From NCBI RefSeq assembly GCF_007290395.2, contig NZ_CP041656.2, positions 2,914,001 to 2,978,000 on the forward strand: DNA of 64,000 nt. Direction: 5' to 3'. Shown here in pieces: positions 6,087-24,425 of the stretch. This stretch comes from Bradyrhizobium cosmicum (lineage in GTDB: Bacteria; Pseudomonadota; Alphaproteobacteria; Rhizobiales; Xanthobacteraceae). The notes beneath the pieces are model-generated. The model saw nothing but the letters and a program-made list of their open reading frames with translations. It was not told the DNA's origin and made no database searches. Position 1 is the first letter of the stretch. Each line of letters opens with the position of its first letter. The position numbers were made by a program, and so were the translations under genes.

Positions 6087-7127
6087 TTACGCGCCGCCTT
6101 GACCGCCGGCTTTAGGCGCATGACCAGCGGGCGCCGGCGCCAGCACCTCGATCGCCTCCTGGATCGACTCCAGTGCGCGCTCGGCCGCGCGGGCGCCGTG
6201 CGCGATCAGATCCTCGGCGCGGTGGAAGTCGAACCAGCCGAACTGGCCGACCCGCGGCGAGATCAGCAGGTCCGGCGGATCGCCGGCGAGGCGCGCGCGG
6301 GTGATGCGGTCCTGCATGATGTTAAAGGCATCCACCATCACCGAGGAGATGCCGGGCCGGCCGCCGCCGCCGAAGAACTCGCGCTTCATGGTCTTCTCCG
6401 CCGAGAACAGGCGCGGAAAGCGCCGTTTGGCTGTCGTCTCCTCGGCCTCCGGCGCGGCCGGCGCGGGCATCGCGCCGTGCGAATAGATCGTCGTGGAATG
6501 GGTGAAGATGTCGCTGGAAAGATTTGCAGCGATGACGATTTCGGCGCCGAGCGCCCGGGCCGCCGAGACCGGCACCGGATTCACCAGCGCGCCATCGACC
6601 AGCCAGCGGTCGCCGACCAGCACCGGCGAGAAGATGCCGGGCAGGGCGTAGGAGGCGCGCATCGCGTCGACCACGCGGCCGCGCGTCAGCCAGATCTCAT
6701 GGCCGGTGCGGACCTCGGTCGCGACGGTCGCGAACTTGATGGGCAGGTCCTCGATCAGGGTCTGGCCGACCGCCTCCTCGAGCCGGGTTGCGAGCTTCTC
6801 GCCACCGATCAGGCCGGAGCCGGTCAGGCGGATGTCGAGATAGCCGAGGATGTTGCGCATCCCCTGCAGGCCCAGTCCCCATTCTTCCAGCGTGTCGAGC
6901 CGGCCGGCCGCATAGAGGCCGCCGACCACGGCGCCGATCGAGGTGCCGACCACGACATCGGGCATGATGCCGTTGGCAGAGAGGGTTCGGAGGATGCCGA
7001 TATGGGCAAAGCCGCGCGCGGCACCGCCTCCGAGCGCAAGGCCAATGACCGGCTTGCGAATGCTGCCAAGTCCGATCTTTTCGCCATTGGAGCCGTTCGC
7101 GCCCCGACCCTTCAAGATATCCAGCAC
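6087..7127 (-). CDS. Patatin-like phospholipase (RssA-type)
   Basis: The 346-residue protein has a patatin domain over about residues 26-215. The oxyanion loop GGGAARG (33-39), nucleophile elbow GTSIG (Ser63) and the Asp of DGALVNP complete the Ser-Asp dyad. A Pro/Ala-rich linker and a C-terminal domain follow. I chose GTG 7127 because TAGGAGAG lies six bases upstream; the open frame extends to 7295, but that extension has no ribosome site. It probably hydrolyses membrane lipids, though physiological substrates for this bacterial group are poorly known. It is divergent from the gene at 7370. Confidence 0.9.
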   Translation of the reverse strand: MLDILKGRGANGSNGEKIGLGSIRKPVIGLALGGGAARGFAHIGILRTLSANGIMPDVVVGTSIGAVVGGLYAAGRLDTLEEWGLGLQGMRNILGYLDIRLTGSGLIGGEKLATRLEEAVGQTLIEDLPIKFATVATEVRTGHEIWLTRGRVVDAMRASYALPGIFSPVLVGDRWLVDGALVNPVPVSAARALGAEIVIAANLSSDIFTHSTTIYSHGAMPAPAAPEAEETTAKRRFPRLFSAEKTMKREFFGGGGRPGISSVMVDAFNIMQDRITRARLAGDPPDLLISPRVGQFGWFDFHRAEDLIAHGARAAERALESIQEAIEVLAPAPAGHAPKAGGQGGA

Positions 7128-9137: not shown

Positions 9138-10130
9138 TCAGACATCAACGACCAGCTTGCCCTTCGTCGCGTGATCGCGGATCAGCGCGTAGGCATCGCC
9201 TACGTTCTCCAGCGTAAAGTGCCTGGCGTCGAGCTGCGGCATCAGCTTGCCGGCTTCAACCAGCCGCGTCGCCTCCGCCATGATCTCCCCGTGATGCGCG
9301 CGGCCTTCGCCTGACAGCAGCGGCAGCAGCGTGAACACGCCGGAATAGGTGGCGGCGCGGAACGAGAGCGGCGCCAGCGCATGCGTGCCCCAGCCGAGCG
9401 CGCTCACGACATGGCCGAAGCGGCGCACCGCCGCAAAGGAGGCATCGAGCACCTTGCCGCCGACGGTATCGTAGACGACGTCGAAGCCGTAGCCTCCGGT
9501 ATGCTCTGCAACGTAAGCCTCGAGGGCAACGTCGCGGTCGATGAAGACGGCGCCGTAACCTTCGATCGTCGCACGTTGCGATGGCGAGCCGGTCGCGAAC
9601 ACCTTCGCTCCGAAGGCGCGCGCGATCTGGATCGCGACATGGCCGACGCCACCGGCGCCGCCATGTATCAGCACCTTCTGGCCGGCCTTCAACATCGCGC
9701 GGTCGATCAGGCCTTCCCAGGCCGTGATGACAATGAGGGGCAGGGCGGCCGCTTCCCGCATGCTGAGATTGGCGGGCTTGAGCGCCAGCAGCTCGGCATC
9801 GACAGCGGCGAATTCGGCCAGCGATCCCGGCACGCCGCCGACGCCGCCGGTCATGCCATAGACTTCGTCGCCCGGCTTGAACCGCGTCACGTTGCCCCCG
9901 GTGCGCTCGATCACGCCAGCAAGATCGATTCCGGGAATGGCGGGCAGCGGATGGCGTGCATGCGCCGCGGCACCAGCGTGGATCTTGGTGTCGAGCGGAT
10001 TGACCCCGCTCGCATGGACCCGCACCAGCACCTCTCCCGGGCCGATCCCGGGCGTGGAGATGGTTGAGATGCGCAGCGGTGCGTTGTGTGTTTCCAGGAT
10101 GGCCGCGCGCATCGTCGATGGTCTCGTCAT
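9138..10130 (-). CDS. Zinc-independent medium-chain oxidoreductase (quinone oxidoreductase family)
   Basis: The 330-residue protein has a GroES-like N-terminal half (GEVLVRVHASGVNPLDTKI, PGIDLAGVIE) and a Rossmann half with the NADPH loop HGGAGGVGHVAIQIA (about residues 155-170). It lacks the Cys-rich zinc lobe of alcohol dehydrogenases. It probably reduces quinones or enones with NADPH. It is divergent from a LysR gene at 10235 across 104 bases, the typical layout for a target of its neighbouring regulator. GGAGCAG lies upstream of ATG 10130. Confidence 0.9.
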   Translation of the reverse strand: MTRPSTMRAAILETHNAPLRISTISTPGIGPGEVLVRVHASGVNPLDTKIHAGAAAHARHPLPAIPGIDLAGVIERTGGNVTRFKPGDEVYGMTGGVGGVPGSLAEFAAVDAELLALKPANLSMREAAALPLIVITAWEGLIDRAMLKAGQKVLIHGGAGGVGHVAIQIARAFGAKVFATGSPSQRATIEGYGAVFIDRDVALEAYVAEHTGGYGFDVVYDTVGGKVLDASFAAVRRFGHVVSALGWGTHALAPLSFRAATYSGVFTLLPLLSGEGRAHHGEIMAEATRLVEAGKLMPQLDARHFTLENVGDAYALIRDHATKGKLVVDV

Positions 10131-10206
10131 GATCGTTCTGCTCCGTTGTCGGCCTCCAATATGCTCATGATATTTTGCATGGGAAGGAACAAGGATGTAC
10201 GATATT

Positions 10207-10222
10207 CATACAGTTTTGTATG
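10207..10222. promoter_or_regulatory. Palindrome between oxidoreductase and LysR genes (candidate operator)
   Basis: The sequence is CATAC-AGTTTT-GTATG. It starts 77 bases before the oxidoreductase start and ends 12 bases before the LysR start, so a bound LysR protein could repress itself and act on the divergent gene. A weaker pair, ATGC and GCAT, flanks 10161-10180. Confidence 0.4.
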
Positions 10223-10234
10223 GTGGGGATTTCG

Positions 10235-11086
10235 ATGGAGTGGAGCGATCTGCGCATCTTCCTGGCGATTGCGCGCGAAGGCACGCTCGGCGCAGCCGCG
10301 CGAAAGATCGGCCAGACCCAGCCGACCATGGGACGGCGGCTTCGCGCGCTCGAGGCCGCGCTCGGACAGACGCTGTTCCAGCGCACCGCCGATGGCTTCG
10401 TGCTGACCGACGAAGGCACTGCCGTGCTGCGCCATGCCGAGCGGATCGAGCAGGAGGCGATCGCGCTTGCGCGGCACGCTTCCGGTGCAGAGACGCAGCT
10501 CGACGGCCTGTTGCGGCTGTCGTCGTCGGACTGGTTCGGGACGGTGATGCTGTCGCCGGTGATCGCCGCGTTCGGGAAGCTTCATCCCAAGGTGACGGTC
10601 GAGCTCCTGACCGATGCGCGGCTCTACAGCCTGCCGCGTCGCGAGGCCGACCTCGTCTTCCGCATCAAGCGGTTCGACGAGCCCGAGGTGATCTCCCGCA
10701 AGCTGCTGCACATTCCCTACGCTCTCTATGGCAGGAAAGGCAGCAAGCCGCCCCGCGCCGGCGACGGCAGCGGCGTCCGCGTCGTCACCATGAACGCCGA
10801 ATTCGCCGACATGCCCGATGCAGTCTGGCTGAAGCGCACGCTGCCGAATGCGGACATCGCCTCGCGCAGCAACAACCGGCAGGCCCAGGCCGAATTGTGC
10901 GCGAGCGGAGGCGGATTTGCCGTGTTGCCGCGTCCGCTCGGCGATCGCGATCGTCGCCTCGTCGCGCTCGACATCGGTACGCCGCCGCCCGGCCGCGACA
11001 CCTTCATCGGCTATCACCGCGATCTCAGGCGCCTCGCCCGCCTGCGCGCGCTGCTCGATCTGGTGATCGAGCGGTTGGCGGGGTAG
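10235..11086 (+). CDS. LysR family transcriptional regulator
   Basis: The 283-residue protein has an N-terminal winged helix (DLRIFLAIAREGTLGAAARKIGQTQPTMGRRLRALEA cut into its helices; residues 4-60) and a LysR substrate domain from about 85. The recognition helix TQPTMGRR differs slightly from the usual SQPAVSRQ. ATG 10235 is preceded by GGGG; an in-frame GTG-type extension upstream would run through the palindrome. Likely target: the divergent oxidoreductase. The inducer is unknown. Confidence 0.9.
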   Translation: MEWSDLRIFLAIAREGTLGAAARKIGQTQPTMGRRLRALEAALGQTLFQRTADGFVLTDEGTAVLRHAERIEQEAIALARHASGAETQLDGLLRLSSSDWFGTVMLSPVIAAFGKLHPKVTVELLTDARLYSLPRREADLVFRIKRFDEPEVISRKLLHIPYALYGRKGSKPPRAGDGSGVRVVTMNAEFADMPDAVWLKRTLPNADIASRSNNRQAQAELCASGGGFAVLPRPLGDRDRRLVALDIGTPPPGRDTFIGYHRDLRRLARLRALLDLVIERLAG

Positions 11087-11139
11087 TGGGGCGTCCGTGG
11101 AAAAGGGGACCGACCTTCGAAAAGGCCGGTCCCAAAGTT

Positions 11140-12486
11140 CTATTCCGCAGCTTCCATGATTCCGCGCGTTCTGGGCAGGGGATCGGCGACTGTGTCGATG
11201 GCTTCCATCGACTTGTCGAACTTGACGAAGTCATCGTCCATGATTGCGCGCGGATTGAAGTTTTCATCCGCGATGATGCCGTGCACGCGGCGGCGCTGCA
11301 TTCCCATGTTGCCGCCGTCGTAGATCGGCAATACGGAAGCCTCCCGAAGATATTTGCCGAACTTGTGCTCGGTACTGAGGCTGTTGACCCCGACAATCTG
11401 CATGCATTTGTAGACGCAATCGATCATCGTTTCGGTAACGTTGATCTTGCACATTGCGCCGATCAGTTCGGCGTGCTGGGAGTGCTTGTCGAGGTAGTCG
11501 GCGGCCCGCCAGGCAAAATATCGCGCGGATTCGATCTTGGCGGCGATGTCGCCCATGATGTAGCCGGCATTCTGGAAGCGGATGATCGGGGTGAGCGATC
11601 CAGCCGTGTTGGTCTTCAGGAATTTCAGCGCGTCCTCGTAGGCTGCCCGAGCTACGCCGACCGCGGCAATTGCTGCCACCGGACCAGACCAGGCAAAGTT
11701 GCGGTTGATGACGAGATCGCCGTTCCCCGCGGCGCCGGGCAGCAGGTTGTCGACAGGAACCTCGGCATTCTCGAACACGACAAATGCGTTCGACGTGGTC
11801 CGGTGGCCTTCCTTGTCGAGGAACGTCCAGGTGATGCCCGGCGTGCCGCGTTCAACGACGATCGCAGACAATCCTTCCGTGCCGCCGACGCTGCTGTCGG
11901 TCCGGATGATCGCGGTCTGGGTGTTGGTACCCAGTCCGTCCCAGCCCGCGGAAGACGACCATTTCTTCTTGCCATTGATGATGAATCGGTCGCCCTTCTT
12001 GACCGCCGTCATGCCGATTCCGGCCTTGGGCAGCGGGCTGTCGAAATTCGCCGTGCCGCCGGTGCCGCCCGGCGGTTCGCCCGCGGTCCAGGCGCTCAGA
12101 TAGGTCCCGGTTGGATCGGACGTTGCCTCGCCGAGGAAGCGCTTCTTTTGTTCGTCGGAGCCGTACCAGAGGACCGGCATCAGGCCGAGACCGTTGCAAA
12201 GGCAGGTGCAGGCGAACCCGGGATCGACGGAGGTGATCTCCTCGCAAGCGATTACGTAGTCCAGACAGGACATTTCCGCCCCGCCATATTGCTTTGGCAG
12301 CATGGCCATGGCGATGCCCGCCTTGTAGGCCTCGATGTAGGCGCCCTTGGTCATCTGGTAGGCCAGCATGGGGTCCGGCTCCCTGTCGGCCGCCGGGATG
12401 ACGGGTGCGAGGATGTTCTCCGTAAACTCCCGCGCAAACTTCTGAATCTTCCGCTGCTCCGGTGACATCGTGAAATCGATCGCCAT
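11140..12486 (-). CDS. Acyl-CoA dehydrogenase family flavoprotein (paralogue 1)
   Basis: The protein has 448 residues with the full family fold: N-terminal helical domain (to about 125), beta domain with the FAD/acyl-CoA strand TYLSAWTAGEPPGGTGGTANF, and C-terminal four-helix bundle. In the catalytic motif, usually Y-E-G-T, it reads IYDGGNMGMQRR, so Asp390 stands where the base is Glu in short- and medium-chain enzymes. It oxidises an acyl-CoA at C2-C3, passing electrons to ETF; the substrate is unknown. It is about 45% alike by eye to the second copy at 13336. The operator-like palindrome 12602-12615 lies in its promoter region. Confidence 0.9.
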   Translation of the reverse strand: MAIDFTMSPEQRKIQKFAREFTENILAPVIPAADREPDPMLAYQMTKGAYIEAYKAGIAMAMLPKQYGGAEMSCLDYVIACEEITSVDPGFACTCLCNGLGLMPVLWYGSDEQKKRFLGEATSDPTGTYLSAWTAGEPPGGTGGTANFDSPLPKAGIGMTAVKKGDRFIINGKKKWSSSAGWDGLGTNTQTAIIRTDSSVGGTEGLSAIVVERGTPGITWTFLDKEGHRTTSNAFVVFENAEVPVDNLLPGAAGNGDLVINRNFAWSGPVAAIAAVGVARAAYEDALKFLKTNTAGSLTPIIRFQNAGYIMGDIAAKIESARYFAWRAADYLDKHSQHAELIGAMCKINVTETMIDCVYKCMQIVGVNSLSTEHKFGKYLREASVLPIYDGGNMGMQRRRVHGIIADENFNPRAIMDDDFVKFDKSMEAIDTVADPLPRTRGIMEAAE

Positions 12487-12601
12487 TCGCGTTCTCCGTT
12501 GATTGCTCGTTCAAGATCGTTGGAGGCGAGGCCGGCCGGGCTGCTTCAACGCTCCCATCATGGGACATCGGGACAAAACGACAAGAAGATAGTTTAGGCA
12601 G

Positions 12602-12615
12602 TTAAATCTGTTTAA
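12602..12615. promoter_or_regulatory. Shared palindrome, copy 1 (TTAAATCTGTTTAA)
   Basis: It lies in the 256-base divergent gap, 116 bases from the dehydrogenase start at 12486 and 128 before the regulator start at 12743. It differs at three positions from the copy at 14691 (consensus TTAAAWCWGTTTWA). It is a candidate binding site for the regulator encoded next to it. Confidence 0.5.
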
Positions 12616-12742
12616 AGTAACGCAAGCGCTTTTGGCGCGTGCAATCTGTCGGCGTTTTGTGCATGATGTGACTGAAATTGACGCAGCGCCGGTCCGTTTC
12701 TTCGAATACATCTGGCGATGCAGCCATGATTGGAGGCTTTGC

Positions 12743-13372
12743 GTGATCGTCGGCGATACCCAGCAAAAGCTGCTGGCGAAACTTCTGGAAGCCAAGGCCG
12801 GACTGACGGTGGACGAACTCGCCGGCGAGGTGGATCTCACGCGCAGTGCGGTGAAGCAGCATCTTTCGGGGATGGAGCGTTCCGGATACGTGCAGCACAC
12901 GTCTTCGAAGAGCGGAGGCCGGCCACGCTTTCTATATACTTTGACCGAAAGCGGTATTGATCTGTTTCCGAAACGCTATTCCTGGTTTTCGCGCGTCATG
13001 TTCGAGAGCTTGCGGAAGAAGATCGGTGCGTCGAAGTTCGGCGCCTACATGTTCGAGTTGGGTGTGGACATGTCGGCGGCGGCGATTCCCCGTCTGGTGG
13101 GAAAGACCCGGGTAGAGCGCGTCGTCGAGATCGTGAAAATCATGAACGAGACCGGGTTTGCGGCCCGCGTCACTTCGCCTGGCAAGGGTGAGAAGCTTCC
13201 TCGCATCGAATGCAAGAACTGCGTATTCCATGATCTTTCGAAGGACTACACCGAGGTCTGCCAATTCGATCTCGGTTTCCTGTCCGGCCTGATGGGCGCG
13301 CCTATCGAGCATCAGGAATGCATGCAGCGCGGCGGTCAGGCCTGCCGCTTCAGGTTCCTGCCGACGGCTTGA
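12743..13372 (+). CDS. HTH regulator with a Cys-rich C-terminal domain (MetOD1/V4R-like)
   Basis: The protein has 209 residues. Residues 5-70 are an ArsR/SufR-type winged helix (LTVDELAGEVDLTRSAVKQH, wing at SKSGGRPRFLYTLT). The C-terminal part (about 85-205) resembles the methanogen-output/V4R class and carries five Cys: CKNC, a third in EVCQFDLG, then HQECMQRGGQACRF. That spacing could bind a metal or an Fe-S cluster, as SufR does, and so sense redox state or a ligand. GTG 12743 is chosen because TGGAGG ends six bases before it; an ATG at 12632 would start upstream of that and inside the promoter. It lies between two acyl-CoA dehydrogenase genes and its last 37 bases overlap the end of the second one on the other strand. 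Confidence 0.8.
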   Translation: MIVGDTQQKLLAKLLEAKAGLTVDELAGEVDLTRSAVKQHLSGMERSGYVQHTSSKSGGRPRFLYTLTESGIDLFPKRYSWFSRVMFESLRKKIGASKFGAYMFELGVDMSAAAIPRLVGKTRVERVVEIVKIMNETGFAARVTSPGKGEKLPRIECKNCVFHDLSKDYTEVCQFDLGFLSGLMGAPIEHQECMQRGGQACRFRFLPTA

Positions 13373-14676
13373 GTATCTGGCGGGGGTGCCTGCTTTCCGA
13401 AGGGCGTTGCAGCCGAGGCCGCGATAGAGCGCGGGTCGAAGGCGGGATCGGCCATGACCGCACAGATCTTCCGCATCTGCATGCCGACATTGCCGGCGTC
13501 ATAGAGCGGGAAAACCGAGGCTTCGCGGAGATAGCGCCCGAGAGGATTGGAGGTGTCCAGTGCGTTGACGCCGACGACCTTCATCGCCTGAAACACGGCG
13601 TTGAACAGCATTTCGCTGCAAAACACCTTGGACATCGGGCCGATCGCATGGCCATTTGCGTCGTGAAGGTCGTGATAATGGGCCGCCTTCCACGCGAACG
13701 CGCGTCCGGCCTCGACCTTCATCGCGACCTCCGCCAGCGTGTAGGCCACGACCTGGTGGTTGATGATCGGCTTGTCTCCCCCGCCGGTATACTTTTTGGA
13801 CCACGATAGCGCGTACTCGTAGGCGGACCGCGCCACACCGACGGACGCGATCGCGGCCACCGGTCCCGACCAGGTGAAGGCCTTGTTGACCACGAGATCG
13901 CCGTTTCCTACGGCGAACGCGTTTTCCTCCGGCACACGGCAGTCCGAAAACACAACGGAATTGTTCTGGCAGATGCGGTGCCCAAGTTTGCTGATCGGCG
14001 GCTCGTAGGTGATGCCAGGGGTCCCGCGTGGAATGATGATAGCACTCAGCGCGCGGGATCCTTCGGCCTCGGGCGTGGTCCGAACGATGCAGACATTGGC
14101 GTCTGCGCCCTGCAAATCCCAACCACCGGCGTTCGCCGGCCAGTGCTTTCGTCCGTTGAGGATGTACTCGCCGTTTTTCTTGTCGTGCACAGCGGTCAAC
14201 GCGATGCCGGCGGGAAGGGATGCCGGGCCGTCGAAATTCGCCGTTCCCCCGGGGGTCCCGGCAGCTTCGCTCACGGTCCATCCGGCCAAATATTCACCGC
14301 GCGGATCGCTGGTCGCGGGCACCAGCCATTGTTGCTTCTGCCGTTCGTTGGCGAACCAGACCAGAGGCATCAAGGCCAGTCCGTTGACGAGCAGGATGGT
14401 AGCGAAGCCCGGATCGACTGCGCAGAGTTCTTCTACCACGATCTGAAGATCGACGTTTGAGATGCCGCCGCCGCCGTACTTCTTGGGAATGAACCCGGTA
14501 GCGAAGCCGAGCTTGTAGCTTTCCACGTAAGCGCCCTTGATCGACTGGAAAGCCTTCTGCGGATCGGGATCTTCGTCGGCCGGGCGCACCAGCGGACCAA
14601 GGATTTCGTTGGCGAACTCGCGGGCCATCCGTTGCAGGCGCCGCTGATAAGACGTCAGCGTAAAATCGATCGGCAT
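13336..14676 (-). CDS. Acyl-CoA dehydrogenase family flavoprotein (paralogue 2)
   Basis: The 446-residue protein has the same domain order as the copy at 11140, with matching phrases at GGTANFD, TWSGPVAAIASVGVAR and LREASVFPLYDAGN. Here too the catalytic position is Asp (Asp393). The C-terminal 30 residues are Ala/Pro/Gln-rich and extend past the usual end. It converges on the regulator gene and overlaps its 3' end by 37 bases. A palindrome like the one before paralogue 1 sits 15 bases upstream of the ATG (14691-14704). With its partner it may form a heteromer or act on successive intermediates of one catabolic route. Confidence 0.9.
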   Translation of the reverse strand: MPIDFTLTSYQRRLQRMAREFANEILGPLVRPADEDPDPQKAFQSIKGAYVESYKLGFATGFIPKKYGGGGISNVDLQIVVEELCAVDPGFATILLVNGLALMPLVWFANERQKQQWLVPATSDPRGEYLAGWTVSEAAGTPGGTANFDGPASLPAGIALTAVHDKKNGEYILNGRKHWPANAGGWDLQGADANVCIVRTTPEAEGSRALSAIIIPRGTPGITYEPPISKLGHRICQNNSVVFSDCRVPEENAFAVGNGDLVVNKAFTWSGPVAAIASVGVARSAYEYALSWSKKYTGGGDKPIINHQVVAYTLAEVAMKVEAGRAFAWKAAHYHDLHDANGHAIGPMSKVFCSEMLFNAVFQAMKVVGVNALDTSNPLGRYLREASVFPLYDAGNVGMQMRKICAVMADPAFDPRSIAASAATPFGKQAPPPDTQAVGRNLKRQA

Positions 14677-14690
14677 CGTCGCTCCGTCGG

Positions 14691-14704
14691 TTAAAACAGT
14701 TTTA
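14691..14704. promoter_or_regulatory. Shared palindrome, copy 2 (TTAAAACAGTTTTA)
   Basis: The site starts 15 bases upstream of the paralogue 2 start codon, overlapping the place a ribosome or polymerase would use. It matches copy 1 at 12602 in 11 of 14 positions. Confidence 0.5.
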
Positions 14705-14756
14705 CATATCTAAAGTCCTCGCGGTTGTTCTTATTGTGTGCAACCGTGGCCTATTG

Positions 14757-15430
14757 ATAGGCACGCGAGAAGGAGGCCGGGCGCAGCAGTCGGTACGGCA
14801 GCGCACCTTCCCGGCGATCCGCCTTGCTCGCACGGGAGACAACAGGCGGCTTTCCGTAGCCCGGCCAGGGCTGCGCATCATTGGGCCTACTAGAATTTGA
14901 CGACCTGTCGGGCAAAACACCCAAGCCATCGGTCAATCAGCGCGGCCAAAAATATTCGCCTTTACAGAATTTCGGAATAGGCGGATATTGCGCGCACTCC
15001 GGCCCAAGGAAGAGGGGCGTATCGCGATCGTCACGAACGCGGGCCGGACGGCGGTGGACGTGGGCCACACTGGTGCGACGGTGATCGCAGGGCGGGCAAC
15101 CGTGAGCGAAGGCGTCGCGCGCACGACCGGTGTGATCCACGTACGGCAAAATCGTGTGGTCCTGGCGCCCGCAGGCTGGCGTCAAGCGTTGCGGTGATGT
15201 GGCGGCCCGACCGGGCGCGCGCATCGTTAGCCGCATGGCGACGGGGGCAATAGTGCATCGCTCCCCGAGGAGAGTACGACATAAGCCGTCAAACCACTGC
15301 GCAGGGAAGGCCGGATGTTTGGCTTCACCTGTATGCCGCTGTGCAAATTCTTGTTGCCACCTTTCGCACAGTGGACCGTGGGTGCCCGGCCGGCACCCGG
15401 TCTTCCCTGCGCCCTCTTTCATTTGAGGGT
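14757..15430. repeat. Composite dispersed repeat of Bradyrhizobium type
   Basis: This non-coding block strings together phrases I recognise from many Bradyrhizobium intergenic regions: CGGCAGCGCACCTTCCCGGC, CCTGTCGGGCAAAACACC, GGGGCGTATCGCGATCGTCA, GCAATAGTGCATCGCTC, and GCGCAGGGAAGGCCGGATG ending in CACCCGGTCTTCCCTGCGCC. The minus frame across it reads KEGAGKTGCR and VRDDRDTPLF, which are often annotated as hypothetical proteins but come from the repeat. I see no transposase or terminal repeats, so how it moves or spreads is unclear. Confidence 0.65.
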
Positions 15431-20357: not shown

Positions 20358-23300
20358 TCACCAGGCAAAGCGCACGACGCCCTTGCCGGCATAGGCGCGG
20401 GTGACGGTGGAAAGCTCGCCCTCGAATGTCGCGGCGGCGGACCAGCCGCTGGCCCATGTCATCTCGACCGACGTGGTCGTGAGCGCGGAGTCGCGCGCCA
20501 GCGCTGCGCCGCTCACGGTGAAGCTCGCGCCGGGCAAGACCGTGAACCCGGCCACCGCCGAACGGGCAGGATTGAAATCATGCGCCCAGGCGAGGCGGCC
20601 GCGCAAGGCGAGGACGCCGTCGGACAGCGCCCAGGATCTGTCGCTGCGCAACCCCAGTTCAGTGCGGCTGTCGGCCACGCGCCTGGCTGCGTAGTTCAGC
20701 GCAAATGTCGACGCGCCGGAGACGACCTGTTCTGCGTAGGCCGGCTGATCGAACAGAACGGCTTGCGCTGCCGCGTAAGGCGTGAGGCCGAGGCCGCCGC
20801 TGACGGGCAGGACGAAGCGATAGCCGCTCTCGATGCGGCCCGCCCATGCATTGGCCTTGAAGCTGGCACGCAATCGATCGGCGCCGGAGATGGTCACCGT
20901 GCGGTCGGTGGTGATGTCCTGCCATCCATAGGCGAGGGCGGCAGCAATGAAGGCGGCCCTCTCGGTATGGCGCAGATGGACGCCGGCCTGAAACAGGTCG
21001 GAGCGGCCGGAGCCTTGACCATTGACGCCGAAGCTGGTGCCGCCGCCGGCCAGAGCAAAGCCCGTCACCGTCTGCGGCGAAAGCCAGTGGTCGGCGCCGG
21101 CCGCGACGGCATAAGTCCGGCTCGTCGCGTCGTTCGATCCGGCGGCTGAGTTGCCGCTCGTGGATTGAGCGCCGCCGAGGCCGGCCGCCCACACATTCCA
21201 GCGCTGCTCGAAGCTGCTGGCCGGGGCGACAGGCAGCCTTGCAAAGGCATCCGTCGTCCGGGTGGTGCGCTCGTCCGCAAAACGGCTCACGCCTCCGGTA
21301 TGACCGACGCCCGTTGCGGTCGGATCGGTGAGCAGTCCGACGAAGCGGCCCATCGCATCGAACGTCGCCTGCTGTGCGGCTGTCCCGGTCTCGCCGGACG
21401 CCTGGGTCAGGGCCGCCGGGGTGAGCGCGCCGTAGACGGCCGGGATGCCGCCGTTGCGATTGAAGAAGTCGGTGAGGGCGTTGGCGACCGCCTGCTGATT
21501 GCCGTTCAATCCGGATGGAATGGCGAACGACAGCACGAGATTGAGATAGGCGTCGTTGGCGTTGTAGCTCAAGCTGGTCGTGAAACCGAACGGCAGGTTG
21601 GTGCTGACGACGCCCGGTGCGAACGTGCCGGAGATGCCGCCGCCGGCGGTCAGGATCGTATAGGTCTTGCTGATATAGCCGCCGTTGGCGAACACGGCAT
21701 TCACGGTTGCGCCGCCGAGCGAGGCGGTGCCGCTGACGGTCGCGATCGATGCGGCCGACGGATCGAGCTGCACCCGATAGGTCGCGCCGGATTGCATGGC
21801 GAGATTGCCGTCGATCGTCATCGACGAGCCCGGCGAACCGTTGCCCGGCGCCAATGTTCCGCCGGCATTGATAGTGATCGTGAGAGGTGGGTCGACGATG
21901 CCCGCACCGGTTAGCGTGCCGCCGGCGTTCACCGTCACGGCCGAGGTGCTGGCGAGGGTGCCTTCGACGTCAAGTGTACCGCCATCGATGATGGTTGCGC
22001 CAGTATAGGTGCTGGTCCCGGTCAGCCGCAGCGTGCCGCTTCCGGCCTTGGTCAGGCCGCCGCTGCCCGAGATCGTACCCGAGAAGGTTGTGCTGCTGTT
22101 GTCACCGCCGGCCGTGAGCGTTGCTGCGCTCAGCGTGACGGCGCCTGCGCCTGCGAGCGAGCCGATGGTCTGGTTGAAGCCGTTGAGATCGAGCGTCGCG
22201 CCGCTGGCGACCGTGAAGGCGCTGGTTGACGCGAATGCTCCGGTCGCGCCCGCCCTCATTGTGCCGGCGTTGATGGCTGTCGCTCCCGTGTAGGAATTCG
22301 TGCCGGAAAACGCGATAGTGCCGCTGCCGTCCTTGGTGAAGCCACCGGTTCCGGAGATCGTGCCCGAGAAGGTCGTGCTGCTATCGTCGCCGCCGGCGGT
22401 CAGCATCGCGCTCCCCAGCGTAACGTTGCCGCCGCCCGCGAGCGAGCCGATGATCTGGTTGAAACCGTTGAGATCGAGCGTCGCGCCGCCTGCCACCGTG
22501 AAGGCACTGCCGGACGAGAATGCGTCGGCCACACCCGCGCGCAGGGTGCCGGCATTCACGTTGGTCGCGCCCGCATAGGAATTCGCGCCGGAGAGCAGCA
22601 GGGTGCCGCTGCCGTCCTTGGTGAAGCCGCCGCTTCCGGAGATCGTGCCGGAGAAGGTCGTGCTGCTATCGTCGCCGCCTGCTGTCAGCGTTGCCGCGCC
22701 CAGCGTGACGCTGCCGGCGCCTGCGAGCGAGCCGATCGTCTGGTCAAAACCGTTGAGGTCGAGCGTTGCGCCGCCGGCGACCGTGAAGGCGCTGACGGAC
22801 GAAAATGCTCCAGTGGCACCCGCCTGCAATGTGCCGGCGTCAACGTGGGTCGCGCCGGTGTAGGAGCTGGCTCCCGACAGCGACAAGGTGCCAAGGCCGA
22901 TCTTGGTCAGCCCGCCGGCGCCGCCGATGTCACCTGCCAGCGTCGCATCGTTGCCGTTGGTGTCGAAACTGCCGCCGCCGCTGTTCAGCGTGACGACGCG
23001 GCTGGTGGTGAAGCCGGCGAGAAATCGCAAGGTGCCGCCGTCGAACGAGAGCCCGCCGGACGCCGCGCCGAGGTTAGCGTCGGACGACACCTCCAGCGTA
23101 CCCTGGTTGATGCTCCAGGGCGTCGCCGCAGTCGTCGTTCCAGTTAGCGTCCAGGTGCTGGTCCCGGTCTTCACGAAAGTCGAGAAGCCCTGATACTGCG
23201 CGGCCGGGCCGATGCTGGAGACATCGAAGCTGCTGTCGGTGGCGCCCCCGAGGCGGAAGGTATCCGTGCCGGTGCCGACGACGTTGCCGGTGATGACTGA

Positions 23301-24425
23301 TCCCGCCCGGAGCTCCAGGATGTTGCTACCGCCGGTGAAGGTGATGGCGTTAACAGGGCCCCAGCCGCCTGTTTGCAGGCCGCCCGAGATCGTGCCGCTG
23401 TTGATCACAGTCAAGTCGGCGCCAAGGATGGCTACGCCCGCAGTGCCAGGTGCGCCCGCCGCACTCGCAAAAGCGGAGCTTGCGGTGCCGGCGTCACCGG
23501 ACGTGCCACCCATGATACTGCCGGAATTGATGATTGTCGCTGGACCGCTGGCATAGACGCCGATTCCGCCATTGCCGCCGTCGCCCGCGGCGTTGGCTGA
23601 TGTACCGGCCAGCGCATTACCTCCGTTGCCGCCGGTTCCGCCGGAAATGCTGCCCGCGTTGTTGAGGACGCTGCTGCCGGTCAGGAAAACACCGATGCCG
23701 CCGTCGCCGCCGTTTCCGCCAAAGCCGTCGCTCAACGTGTTAGCGCCGCCGGCGCCGCCGTTGCCGCCGCGGATGATCCCGGTACTTCCGTTCGTATAGG
23801 TGAGAGCACTGCCATCAACGACGACACCATAGCCGCCAGCCCCGCCGCCGCCGCCGGCGCGATTGGTGCCGGTCGTCGTGCCGCCTTTGCCGCCGCGGGT
23901 GCCGGCAACGGTCGCCGAGTTGGTGGTGCTGGTCGTCACCACCGCGCCGTGAACGCCGCCGGCGCCGCCGCCGCCGCTCGTGACGAAGTCACCATTCTCG
24001 CCGTCGTCGCCATTCCCGTCACTGTCGGTGTCCGAGCCGCCCAAAACGTTGCCCGTACTGTCACTTCCGCCGGCGCCGCTGGTCACGCCCGCACCACCAC
24101 CGCCGCCGCCGCGGGTCGGATTCGTCCCAGCGGTCCCGTTGCCCCCCGCGCCGGTCGCCGAGCTCAGCCCGCCATTGGTGAAACCTGGGCTGTTGCTGCC
24201 GCCCGAACCGCCGCGGGTGGTCTGCGCCAGAGCGGGGCTGGCGGCGACGAGCGCCAAGACGACGGCAGTTGTCAGGTAGGACAGCCTCGGCCGCCTCCGG
24301 CTGCATCCCGGAGGGTCGCGATGTAATGCGTGAGCGGCCGGCAACGTCACCCCCTTGCGCAAAGACGCCCAATGCAGACCCTGCAGCGTCTTCGGCTCCG
24401 CTCCTGCGGAGCGGCAAATGTCCAT
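20358..24425 (-). CDS. Autotransporter adhesin (type Va) with tandem passenger repeats
   Basis: The 1355-residue protein has an extended signal region (1-68, cleavage after ASPALAQ). A Gly/Ser/Thr-rich passenger follows: residues 70-360 have a Gly-rich PE_PGRS-like beta-helix, and 500-880 have PATR-type autotransporter-associated strands. Three near-identical 95-residue units occupy 506-790 (GGATLDLNGFDQTIGSLAG and so on), with a diverged fourth after. The C-terminal 282 residues (from QRWNVWAAGLGG) are a beta-barrel ending in the aromatic RFAW. The barrel exports the passenger to the cell surface. It has almost no Cys after the signal, as expected. AGGTAA lies before ATG 24425. A likely regulator is encoded divergently at 24534. 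Confidence 0.92.
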   Translation of the reverse strand: MDICRSAGAEPKTLQGLHWASLRKGVTLPAAHALHRDPPGCSRRRPRLSYLTTAVVLALVAASPALAQTTRGGSGGSNSPGFTNGGLSSATGAGGNGTAGTNPTRGGGGGGAGVTSGAGGSDSTGNVLGGSDTDSDGNGDDGENGDFVTSGGGGAGGVHGAVVTTSTTNSATVAGTRGGKGGTTTGTNRAGGGGGAGGYGVVVDGSALTYTNGSTGIIRGGNGGAGGANTLSDGFGGNGGDGGIGVFLTGSSVLNNAGSISGGTGGNGGNALAGTSANAAGDGGNGGIGVYASGPATIINSGSIMGGTSGDAGTASSAFASAAGAPGTAGVAILGADLTVINSGTISGGLQTGGWGPVNAITFTGGSNILELRAGSVITGNVVGTGTDTFRLGGATDSSFDVSSIGPAAQYQGFSTFVKTGTSTWTLTGTTTAATPWSINQGTLEVSSDANLGAASGGLSFDGGTLRFLAGFTTSRVVTLNSGGGSFDTNGNDATLAGDIGGAGGLTKIGLGTLSLSGASSYTGATHVDAGTLQAGATGAFSSVSAFTVAGGATLDLNGFDQTIGSLAGAGSVTLGAATLTAGGDDSSTTFSGTISGSGGFTKDGSGTLLLSGANSYAGATNVNAGTLRAGVADAFSSGSAFTVAGGATLDLNGFNQIIGSLAGGGNVTLGSAMLTAGGDDSSTTFSGTISGTGGFTKDGSGTIAFSGTNSYTGATAINAGTMRAGATGAFASTSAFTVASGATLDLNGFNQTIGSLAGAGAVTLSAATLTAGGDNSSTTFSGTISGSGGLTKAGSGTLRLTGTSTYTGATIIDGGTLDVEGTLASTSAVTVNAGGTLTGAGIVDPPLTITINAGGTLAPGNGSPGSSMTIDGNLAMQSGATYRVQLDPSAASIATVSGTASLGGATVNAVFANGGYISKTYTILTAGGGISGTFAPGVVSTNLPFGFTTSLSYNANDAYLNLVLSFAIPSGLNGNQQAVANALTDFFNRNGGIPAVYGALTPAALTQASGETGTAAQQATFDAMGRFVGLLTDPTATGVGHTGGVSRFADERTTRTTDAFARLPVAPASSFEQRWNVWAAGLGGAQSTSGNSAAGSNDATSRTYAVAAGADHWLSPQTVTGFALAGGGTSFGVNGQGSGRSDLFQAGVHLRHTERAAFIAAALAYGWQDITTDRTVTISGADRLRASFKANAWAGRIESGYRFVLPVSGGLGLTPYAAAQAVLFDQPAYAEQVVSGASTFALNYAARRVADSRTELGLRSDRSWALSDGVLALRGRLAWAHDFNPARSAVAGFTVLPGASFTVSGAALARDSALTTTSVEMTWASGWSAAATFEGELSTVTRAYAGKGVVRFAW
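22056..22910 (-). repeat. Three tandem 285-bp coding repeats in the autotransporter
   Basis: Each unit codes 95 residues from the LTK/FTK-xGxGTL start to TFSGTISGSGG. The units are close at both DNA and protein level, which points to recent duplication and gives material for slip or recombination changes in copy number. Confidence 0.9.

Follow-up and report, generated by a model that had tools for sequence, protein, structure and literature searches.

A conserved cassette of a cysteine-rich V4R-type regulator, two operator copies and two flavoenzymes of the nitroalkane oxidase clade in Bradyrhizobium cosmicum

We analysed a 64,000-nucleotide stretch of the Bradyrhizobium cosmicum genome (contig NZ_CP041656.2, positions 2,914,001 to 2,978,000; hereafter the window), in which a gene for a small cysteine-rich regulator lies between two flavoenzyme genes. 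Comparison across genomes shows that the three genes form a conserved cassette, that both enzyme genes are preceded by a single operator found at no other place in the host genome, and that the two enzymes belong to the nitroalkane oxidase (NAO) clade. From these comparisons we infer repression, an iron–sulphur (Fe–S) cluster, a nitric oxide (NO) signal, a nitro substrate and an electron acceptor, and we tentatively read the cassette as a repressor that would respond to reactive nitrogen, probably through Fe–S chemistry, and control two flavoenzymes that would oxidise nitro compounds. The features of the cassette are as follows.

11140..12486, minus strand: flavoenzyme 1 (ACAD1, 448 amino acids), with Pfam acyl-CoA dehydrogenase domains; NAO clade, best PDB relative nitroalkane oxidase
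12592..12617, no strand: operator 1, GTTTAGGCA-N8-TGTTTAAAG, in the gap that separates the divergent genes of enzyme 1 and the regulator; 17/18 positions of the scoring pattern
12602..12615, plus strand: copy 1 of a 14-mer (spacer and right arm of operator 1), exact pattern match
12743..13372, plus strand: regulator (209 amino acids), MarR/ArsR-type winged helix-turn-helix (HTH) and V4R/TRAPP-like C-terminal domain
13336..14676, minus strand: flavoenzyme 2 (ACAD2, 446 amino acids), 49% identical to flavoenzyme 1
14690..14715, minus strand: operator 2, CTTTAGATA-N8-TGTTTTAAC, 14–39 bases 5′ of the enzyme 2 start codon; 15/18, left arm degenerate
14691..14704, plus strand: copy 2 of the 14-mer, exact pattern match
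11102..14773, no strand: cassette, bounded by the limit of DNA homology with more distant Bradyrhizobium carriers

Enzyme 1 and the regulator are divergent and separated by 256 bases, and the regulator and enzyme 2 are convergent, their 3′ ends overlapping by 37 bases. All three open reading frames (ORFs) lie where an earlier note on this DNA had placed them, as does its 14-mer, TTAAAWCWGTTTWA, which matches exactly at 12602–12615 and 14691–14704 with 11 of 14 positions the same in both copies. With up to two mismatches allowed, the 14-mer occurs four times in the window, at two places on both strands, where shuffles predict 0.04. In the host genome (one contig of 7,271,215 bases) these two are the only exact matches, and up to two mismatches yield 16 matches versus 38 for a reversed control pattern, so that specificity is limited to the exact or the longer site. 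The palindrome that the note had seen is indeed present before both enzyme genes, but its 14 bases prove to be the spacer and right arm of a 26-base interrupted inverted repeat, CTTTWRRCA-N8-TGYYWAAAG. A 24-base version of this operator, allowing up to three mismatches, matches the 7.27 Mb genome at the two enzyme promoters alone (reversed control, 0), which bears out the claim of a single DNA element before both genes. A search for perfect short inverted repeats around both sites gave nothing useful, because the operator arms are imperfect, and a sigma-70 promoter scan found nothing at either enzyme promoter.

The operator is conserved wherever the cassette is found. An alignment of the gap at 14 loci reveals a conserved block, typically CTTTAGGCAG-TTAAAA-CTGTTTAAAG, in which operator 1 has 79% identity to the window versus 54% outside the site; in five more distant alphaproteobacterial loci the values are 68% and 34%. 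The neighbouring block 12576–12602 is equally conserved when near relatives are counted in. Before enzyme 2 the geometry is that of operator 1, with a weaker left arm. Loci were scored with CTTTHRRCA-N8-TGYYDAAAG (18 positions), a pattern derived from the same named trio loci that it scores: the site at enzyme 1 reaches 15–18 of 18 positions in 16/16 of these, and a separate site scoring at least 15 accompanies enzyme 2 at eight of the 12 alphaproteobacterial loci with the same gene order. Two Paraburkholderia plasmid loci, which lie outside the derivation of the pattern though related to one trio locus (L037), score 17/18, the top site of the locus. It is very likely that the operator serves to control both enzymes locally. 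Lying between divergent genes, operator 1 may serve the regulator's own promoter as well. Upstream of enzyme 1 in two loci (L035, L036), the right arm TGGCATAAG continues into sequence resembling a sigma-54 −24/−12 promoter (TGGCATAAGCTTTGC in L036).

A scan of named genomes gave 45 loci with a relative of the regulator, 20 of them at 53–97% identity and 25 at 33–43%. Both enzymes accompany the regulator in 16 of the 20 close loci, and an enzyme 2 homologue alone in the other four (L029, L033, L034, L044). The same three genes, which the earlier note had proposed to seek elsewhere, thus recur together, and the operator follows them in the orthologous loci. Gene order is as in the window in 12/16 trios, all alphaproteobacterial; regulator, enzyme 1 and enzyme 2 are co-directional in that order in L035, L037 and L038, and the order is enzyme 1, regulator, enzyme 2 in L036 (betaproteobacterial). 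The trio stays together while its order varies, so that linkage outlasts rearrangement. L034 holds a further homologue of enzyme 2 some 4 kb away from the regulator; tblastn matches it in two pieces (1509–1985 and 1991–2779), and it looks broken or misassembled.

The host's relatives are Bradyrhizobium, and within this genus the regulator occurs in eight of 265 genomes, the host included, each time with the trio (8/8; the contig of L097 ends within enzyme 1); three of the eight are the same records as L020, L023 and L024. Flanking DNA is common only to the two nearest Bradyrhizobium genomes (G489, G677), and in the others homology ends at the cassette or at a contig end: the matches cover 11102–14742 (two genomes), 11126–14773 and 11140–14716, and a fifth is cut by its contig (query 8001–18500). 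Since homology is confined to about 11102–14773, the cassette looks like a mobile unit that was apparently transferred whole, in keeping with the self-contained switch suggested earlier. A LysR regulator gene (10175–11086), divergent from a PIG3-type quinone oxidoreductase gene (9138–10130), immediately adjoins it. Across the class, enzyme 1 homologues at E 1e-110 occur in 3/385 genomes, the host included; the other two carriers (L074, L075) hold a single relative each in surroundings that look unrelated by eye, and more distant members of the enzyme family may therefore have other roles. Relatives of the regulator were found in 3/398 genomes across the phylum, namely the host, a near relative and one distant locus (L099).

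The regulator combines an ArsR/IclR-like HTH with a Cys-rich C-terminal domain. In its predicted structure (pLDDT 88.6) a winged HTH of MarR type is followed by a V4R/TRAPP domain resembling those of MopR, PoxR and Bet3. Both the HTH and the five C-terminal cysteines (157, 160, 173, 193 and 201) described earlier are present, but C157 is variable; C160, C173, C193 and C201, together with H163, are the same in all 33 family members compared, at identities as low as 35%. The later alignments (A2 and A4) omit one protein, P0022, whose C-terminus appears frame-shifted. The best NCBIfam model is SufR (TIGR02702), the cyanobacterial and actinobacterial Fe–S repressor of suf, at 60.7 bits against a cut-off of 178.8; a distant relative (L051) reaches 77.5 bits. 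The idea of a SufR-like sensor with a conserved Cys site therefore holds up. SufR proper is ruled out by the score and by an operator pattern found only at the two enzyme promoters, not at suf. Like SufR, the regulator has a winged HTH and a Cys-rich C-terminal domain, and its first two invariant cysteines are spaced x12; unlike SufR, its third cysteine is placed otherwise (x19, x7), and its operator and targets differ. The SufR of Mycobacterium tuberculosis reportedly responds to NO.

Another close system is ArnR of Corynebacterium glutamicum, which binds a [4Fe-4S] cluster, represses hmp and loses DNA binding with NO, not with nitrite (PMC12343034). Both proteins have a winged HTH joined to a TRAPP/V4R-fold C-terminal domain (TRAPPC3-like in ArnR) with conserved cysteines, which in ArnR (179, 193 and 223) are essential, and ArnR controls NO detoxification (PMC12343034). 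The same source describes ArnR homologues as almost only actinobacterial and its targets as narKGHJI and hmp, and ArnR has three conserved cysteines versus four here. Searches of open full texts, which mostly leave out subscription journals, listed no paper whose title or abstract deals with such a regulator, operator or pair of enzymes. We consider it somewhat probable that the regulator is an Fe–S protein, its Cys4-His site most likely holding a [4Fe-4S] cluster, and we give reactive nitrogen as its signal about an even chance. Operator 2 lies directly before a start codon, which favours repression over activation, and the regulator is probably a repressor.

The distant relatives of the regulator link the family to NO. 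Within the DNA examined, none of the 25 distant loci has an enzyme homologue. A truncated haemoglobin gene lies beside the regulator or one gene away in 13 of them, with a ferredoxin-type reductase in 12 of these 13, and NorB is present in 4/25. At L051, Pfam and the PDB confirm the truncated haemoglobin, and the best PDB match of NorB is cNOR (5.6e-95). Seven Nitrospina-type or Emcibacteraceae records carry, by eye, cupredoxin-like and DUF4142 genes; at L043, Pfam confirms DUF4142 and gives no match for the cupredoxin-like neighbour. The remaining five loci (L042, L047, L053, L054, L063) have another context or are cut. An HPP-family membrane protein lies near the regulator at L047 (Pfam TM_HPP) and, by eye, at L061, where a NapA-like nitrate reductase fragment was also seen by eye.

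The same operator geometry recurs at these loci. A matrix trained on enzyme-linked sites alone was used to score 25 loci, and counts were taken over the 18 distant loci with an intact region upstream of a haemoglobin or DUF4142 gene; L046 and L048, where the contig ends inside the target gene, were left out. The top match of the whole locus falls before that gene in 11/18 (6/13 haemoglobin and 5/5 DUF4142 loci), against 0.5 expected, some of these sites having been spotted by eye beforehand. A spacer of 8 gives 11 loci and every other spacer from 2 to 14 gives 0–2, and column-permuted matrices average 0.6, with one of 200 reaching 11; these controls are fairer than the position-uniform probability of 4.6e-14, which ignores base composition. 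The seven other scored loci rank 1 (L042, L063, L029, L033), 4 (L034), 10 (L044, where the scored interval ended short of a 17/18 site at 7055) and 11 (L047). Comparison thus shows a family-wide operator geometry and relatives linked to NO genes. More loosely, it is possible that the regulator represents an undescribed family of NO-sensing V4R-type Fe–S repressors in Alpha-, Beta- and Gammaproteobacteria and Nitrospina-like bacteria, which would use one operator geometry (9-base arms, 8-base spacer) and control one of two target sets: genes that detoxify NO (NorBC, or truncated haemoglobin together with a reductase of its own) or, in the mobile cassette, paired denitrating flavoenzymes.

The enzymes, noted earlier as two acyl-CoA dehydrogenases, do have the fold and domains of that family, but their closest solved relative is nitroalkane oxidase. 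Against the PDB, fungal NAO scores 175.5 bits with enzyme 1 and 172.6 with enzyme 2, versus 160.4 and 142.3 for the best acyl-CoA dehydrogenase; with a profile of 39 enzyme sequences, NAO scores 260 bits versus 208. The AlphaFold model of enzyme 1 (pLDDT 83.4) has the acyl-CoA dehydrogenase fold and matches NAO first. Sequence alignments to the PDB and the profile, with NAO residue numbers taken from PDB entry titles, place NAO Asp402 at enzyme 1 Asp390 (kept in 39/39) and Ser276 at Ser267 (nearly invariant among the 39; exception seen, P0188). The catalytic Glu of acyl-CoA dehydrogenases occupies the position of residue 376 of medium-chain acyl-CoA dehydrogenase (MCAD) or that of its T255; in the pair it is absent from both, and Asp and Ser stand there instead. 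Among paralogues in the same genome, L101 has Glu at the base position and L102–L104 have Glu at the Ser267 position.

The pair also shares with NAO a GWD insert, which also occurs in a third NAO-clade enzyme of the same genome (L100; 37% identity with enzyme 1) but in none of five other paralogues. L100 keeps the Asp and the equivalent of NAO Arg409, and no cassette-type operator was found there with the 24-base pattern at up to three mismatches; the ORF adjoining this locus (L100/L106, G000 C1:3383347-3384564) is AraC-like by eye. The Fusarium and Podospora nitroalkane oxidases (2c0u, 3mkh) are thus the closest solved relatives by sequence, with the Asp402 and Ser276 equivalents and the GWD insert in common, yet the pair is bacterial, stands under a Cys-rich regulator, is only 28–29% identical to them and has Gln in place of Arg409. 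With Asp and Ser kept and Arg409 replaced, the pair are NAO-clade enzymes with an altered active site rather than certified nitroalkane oxidases; some source databases already label relatives 'nitroalkane oxidase'. A nitro substrate with nitrite release has, in our view, a chance only a little below even.

The surroundings of some relatives also concern nitrogen oxides. Neighbouring genes were rechecked by tblastn, since greedy ORF lists favour long ORFs and can show the wrong strand. In Shinella, a plasmid represented by L031 and L065 (one record) carries enzyme 2, the regulator and enzyme 1 and, next in line, ribA, nirB, nirD and cysG; in the host's own genome NirB has partial matches, none above cut-off. 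By tblastn, ribA (GTP cyclohydrolase II) lies 3′ of enzyme 1 both in Shinella and in Rhizobium CG5 (L032); annotation places genes for LLM-class flavin oxidoreductases near L065 and L067, and L032 has such genes by eye. A pathway proposed for a Pseudomonas breaks down 3-nitropropionate with release of NO and nitrite and makes use of Hmp and NasD/NirBD (PMC9552603). On two other plasmids the enzyme pair stands beside an Rrf2 regulator, in the order enzyme 1, Rrf2, enzyme 2 in Rhodococcus, and truncated haemoglobin (group III), Rrf2, enzyme 2, GAF protein, enzyme 1, ferredoxin and electron transfer flavoprotein (ETF) in Sulfitobacter. The two Rrf2 proteins are 65% alike and carry three cysteines (C-x6-C-x5-C), recalling NsrR and RirA; their family is unrelated to the regulator. 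The inverted repeat common to both loci (5′ of enzyme 1 in L066 and of the Rrf2 gene in L067), AATCRGTAT..ATAC.GATTT by eye, is unlike the cassette operator.

We tentatively propose the following working mechanism. A repressor of the SufR/ArnR type would occupy both operator copies, of which the first is common to the promoters of the regulator and enzyme 1 and the second spans the region around the enzyme 2 start. Once reactive nitrogen (NO itself, or nitrite turned into NO) had damaged the cluster, the repressor would leave the DNA, and both NAO-clade flavoenzymes would be made. They would then strip the nitro group from small nitro-organics, giving nitrite, with O2 or ETF as the electron acceptor. 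The latter acceptor is suggested by ETF genes near some relatives and is favoured in those with enzyme 2 alone.

Several observations weigh against this mechanism, on the side of the regulator as well as of the enzymes. Genes nirBD adjoin only one of the 16 trio loci, that of Shinella, and a tblastn check for nirBD-cysG was negative at the rest. The window and the surroundings of the close loci yielded neither a truncated haemoglobin nor a NorB homologue. Both Rrf2 proteins fall below the NsrR cut-off (103.7 and 98.0 of 182 bits) and score slightly higher with RirA (108–112 bits), likewise below cut-off. Enzyme 2 has no site of 15 or more in four of the 12 same-order alphaproteobacterial loci (L020, L027, L031, L032), and in seven of the 18 distant test loci the target site is not rank 1; L058 and L061 have weak operator matches only. 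Furthermore, the C-terminal domain of the regulator resembles the phenol sensors MopR and PoxR as much as any Fe–S protein. This likeness suggests a substrate-sensing catabolic switch, in which the V4R/MopR-like domain would bind the organic substrate, possibly a nitro compound, and a structural zinc would occupy the Cys site, with operator and targets unchanged and NO playing no part. We consider this unlikely. The V4R-type sensor domains of MopR, PoxR and DmpR share the fold but are parts of larger phenol-responsive regulators, whereas here a small winged-HTH protein carries a further invariant Cys and His, namely C160 as a fourth cysteine and H163. The same regulator family and operator geometry stand beside haemoglobin and NO reductase genes without an evident common organic ligand, and TRAPP-like-domain regulators include the Fe–S sensor ArnR (PMC12343034).

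On the side of the enzymes, NAO is by fold barely ahead of Thermus thermophilus MCAD (4e-24 versus 1.8e-23). Arg409, a residue studied for catalysis (PDB titles 2zaf/2reh), is Gln397 in enzyme 1 and Gln in 39/39 enzymes aligned, and Asp at the base position also occurs in a plain paralogue of the same genome (L105) and is thus not NAO-specific. In three trios from Rhodopseudomonas (L021, L022, L030), tblastn and Pfam show a gene of the AMP-binding, acyl-CoA-ligase type after enzyme 1, and there it favours a CoA substrate. Three of the four loci with enzyme 2 alone (L029, L034, L044) have neighbouring genes for an ETF subunit and/or a membrane-type Fer4 protein, which perhaps let the lone enzyme, still under this regulator family, pass electrons through ETF to quinone; here and in Sulfitobacter, ETF suits a dehydrogenase. 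Finding these ligase and ETF genes lowered our confidence in nitro-compound oxidation and raised that in true acyl-CoA (or acyl-carrier-protein) dehydrogenases, which would have an Asp base, be linked to ETF, act on an unusual carboxylic acid and stand under a sensor of iron, oxygen or Fe–S status. The Pfam domains and the RirA-leaning Rrf2 replacements fit this alternative as well. We nevertheless regard it as rather improbable: the profile prefers NAO by 52 bits, the GWD insert sets the pair and L100 apart from five other paralogues, and the ligase-type gene was not found by tblastn at the remaining 13 trio loci, of which some lie on short contigs.

The alicyclic, aromatic or branched acids proposed earlier as substrates fare poorly against enzymes nearest to nitroalkane oxidase and relatives whose surroundings point to nitrogen oxides, and models for cyclohexane-carbonyl-CoA, cyclohexanecarboxyl-CoA and pimeloyl-CoA dehydrogenases do no better than others, all far below cut-off; the CoA-ligase-like gene beside three trios keeps an acid reading alive. 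Least probable is that the regulator is an activator or the two enzymes one hetero-oligomer with a different reaction: operator 1, centred about 119 bases 5′ of the enzyme 1 start, is compatible with activation, and the enzymes are paired in 16/20 close loci, but operator 2 ends 14 bases 5′ of the start codon, too far downstream for a usual activator site. Elsewhere in the window, a 1355-amino-acid ORF (20358–24425) with glycine-rich, passenger-like repeats appears autotransporter-like by eye.

In sum, if nitro-compound oxidation under a reactive-nitrogen-responsive repressor is borne out, the removal of organic nitro groups would be tied to NO sensing, and the paired nitroalkane-oxidase-like enzymes would find a place in bacterial metabolism, perhaps in dealing with plant nitro toxins met by rhizobia and their relatives. 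Should the broader NO-sensing family also exist, organic nitro compounds would be sensed through the NO or nitrite that they release, and the regulator and operator of a methanotroph nitric-oxide response would have been named.

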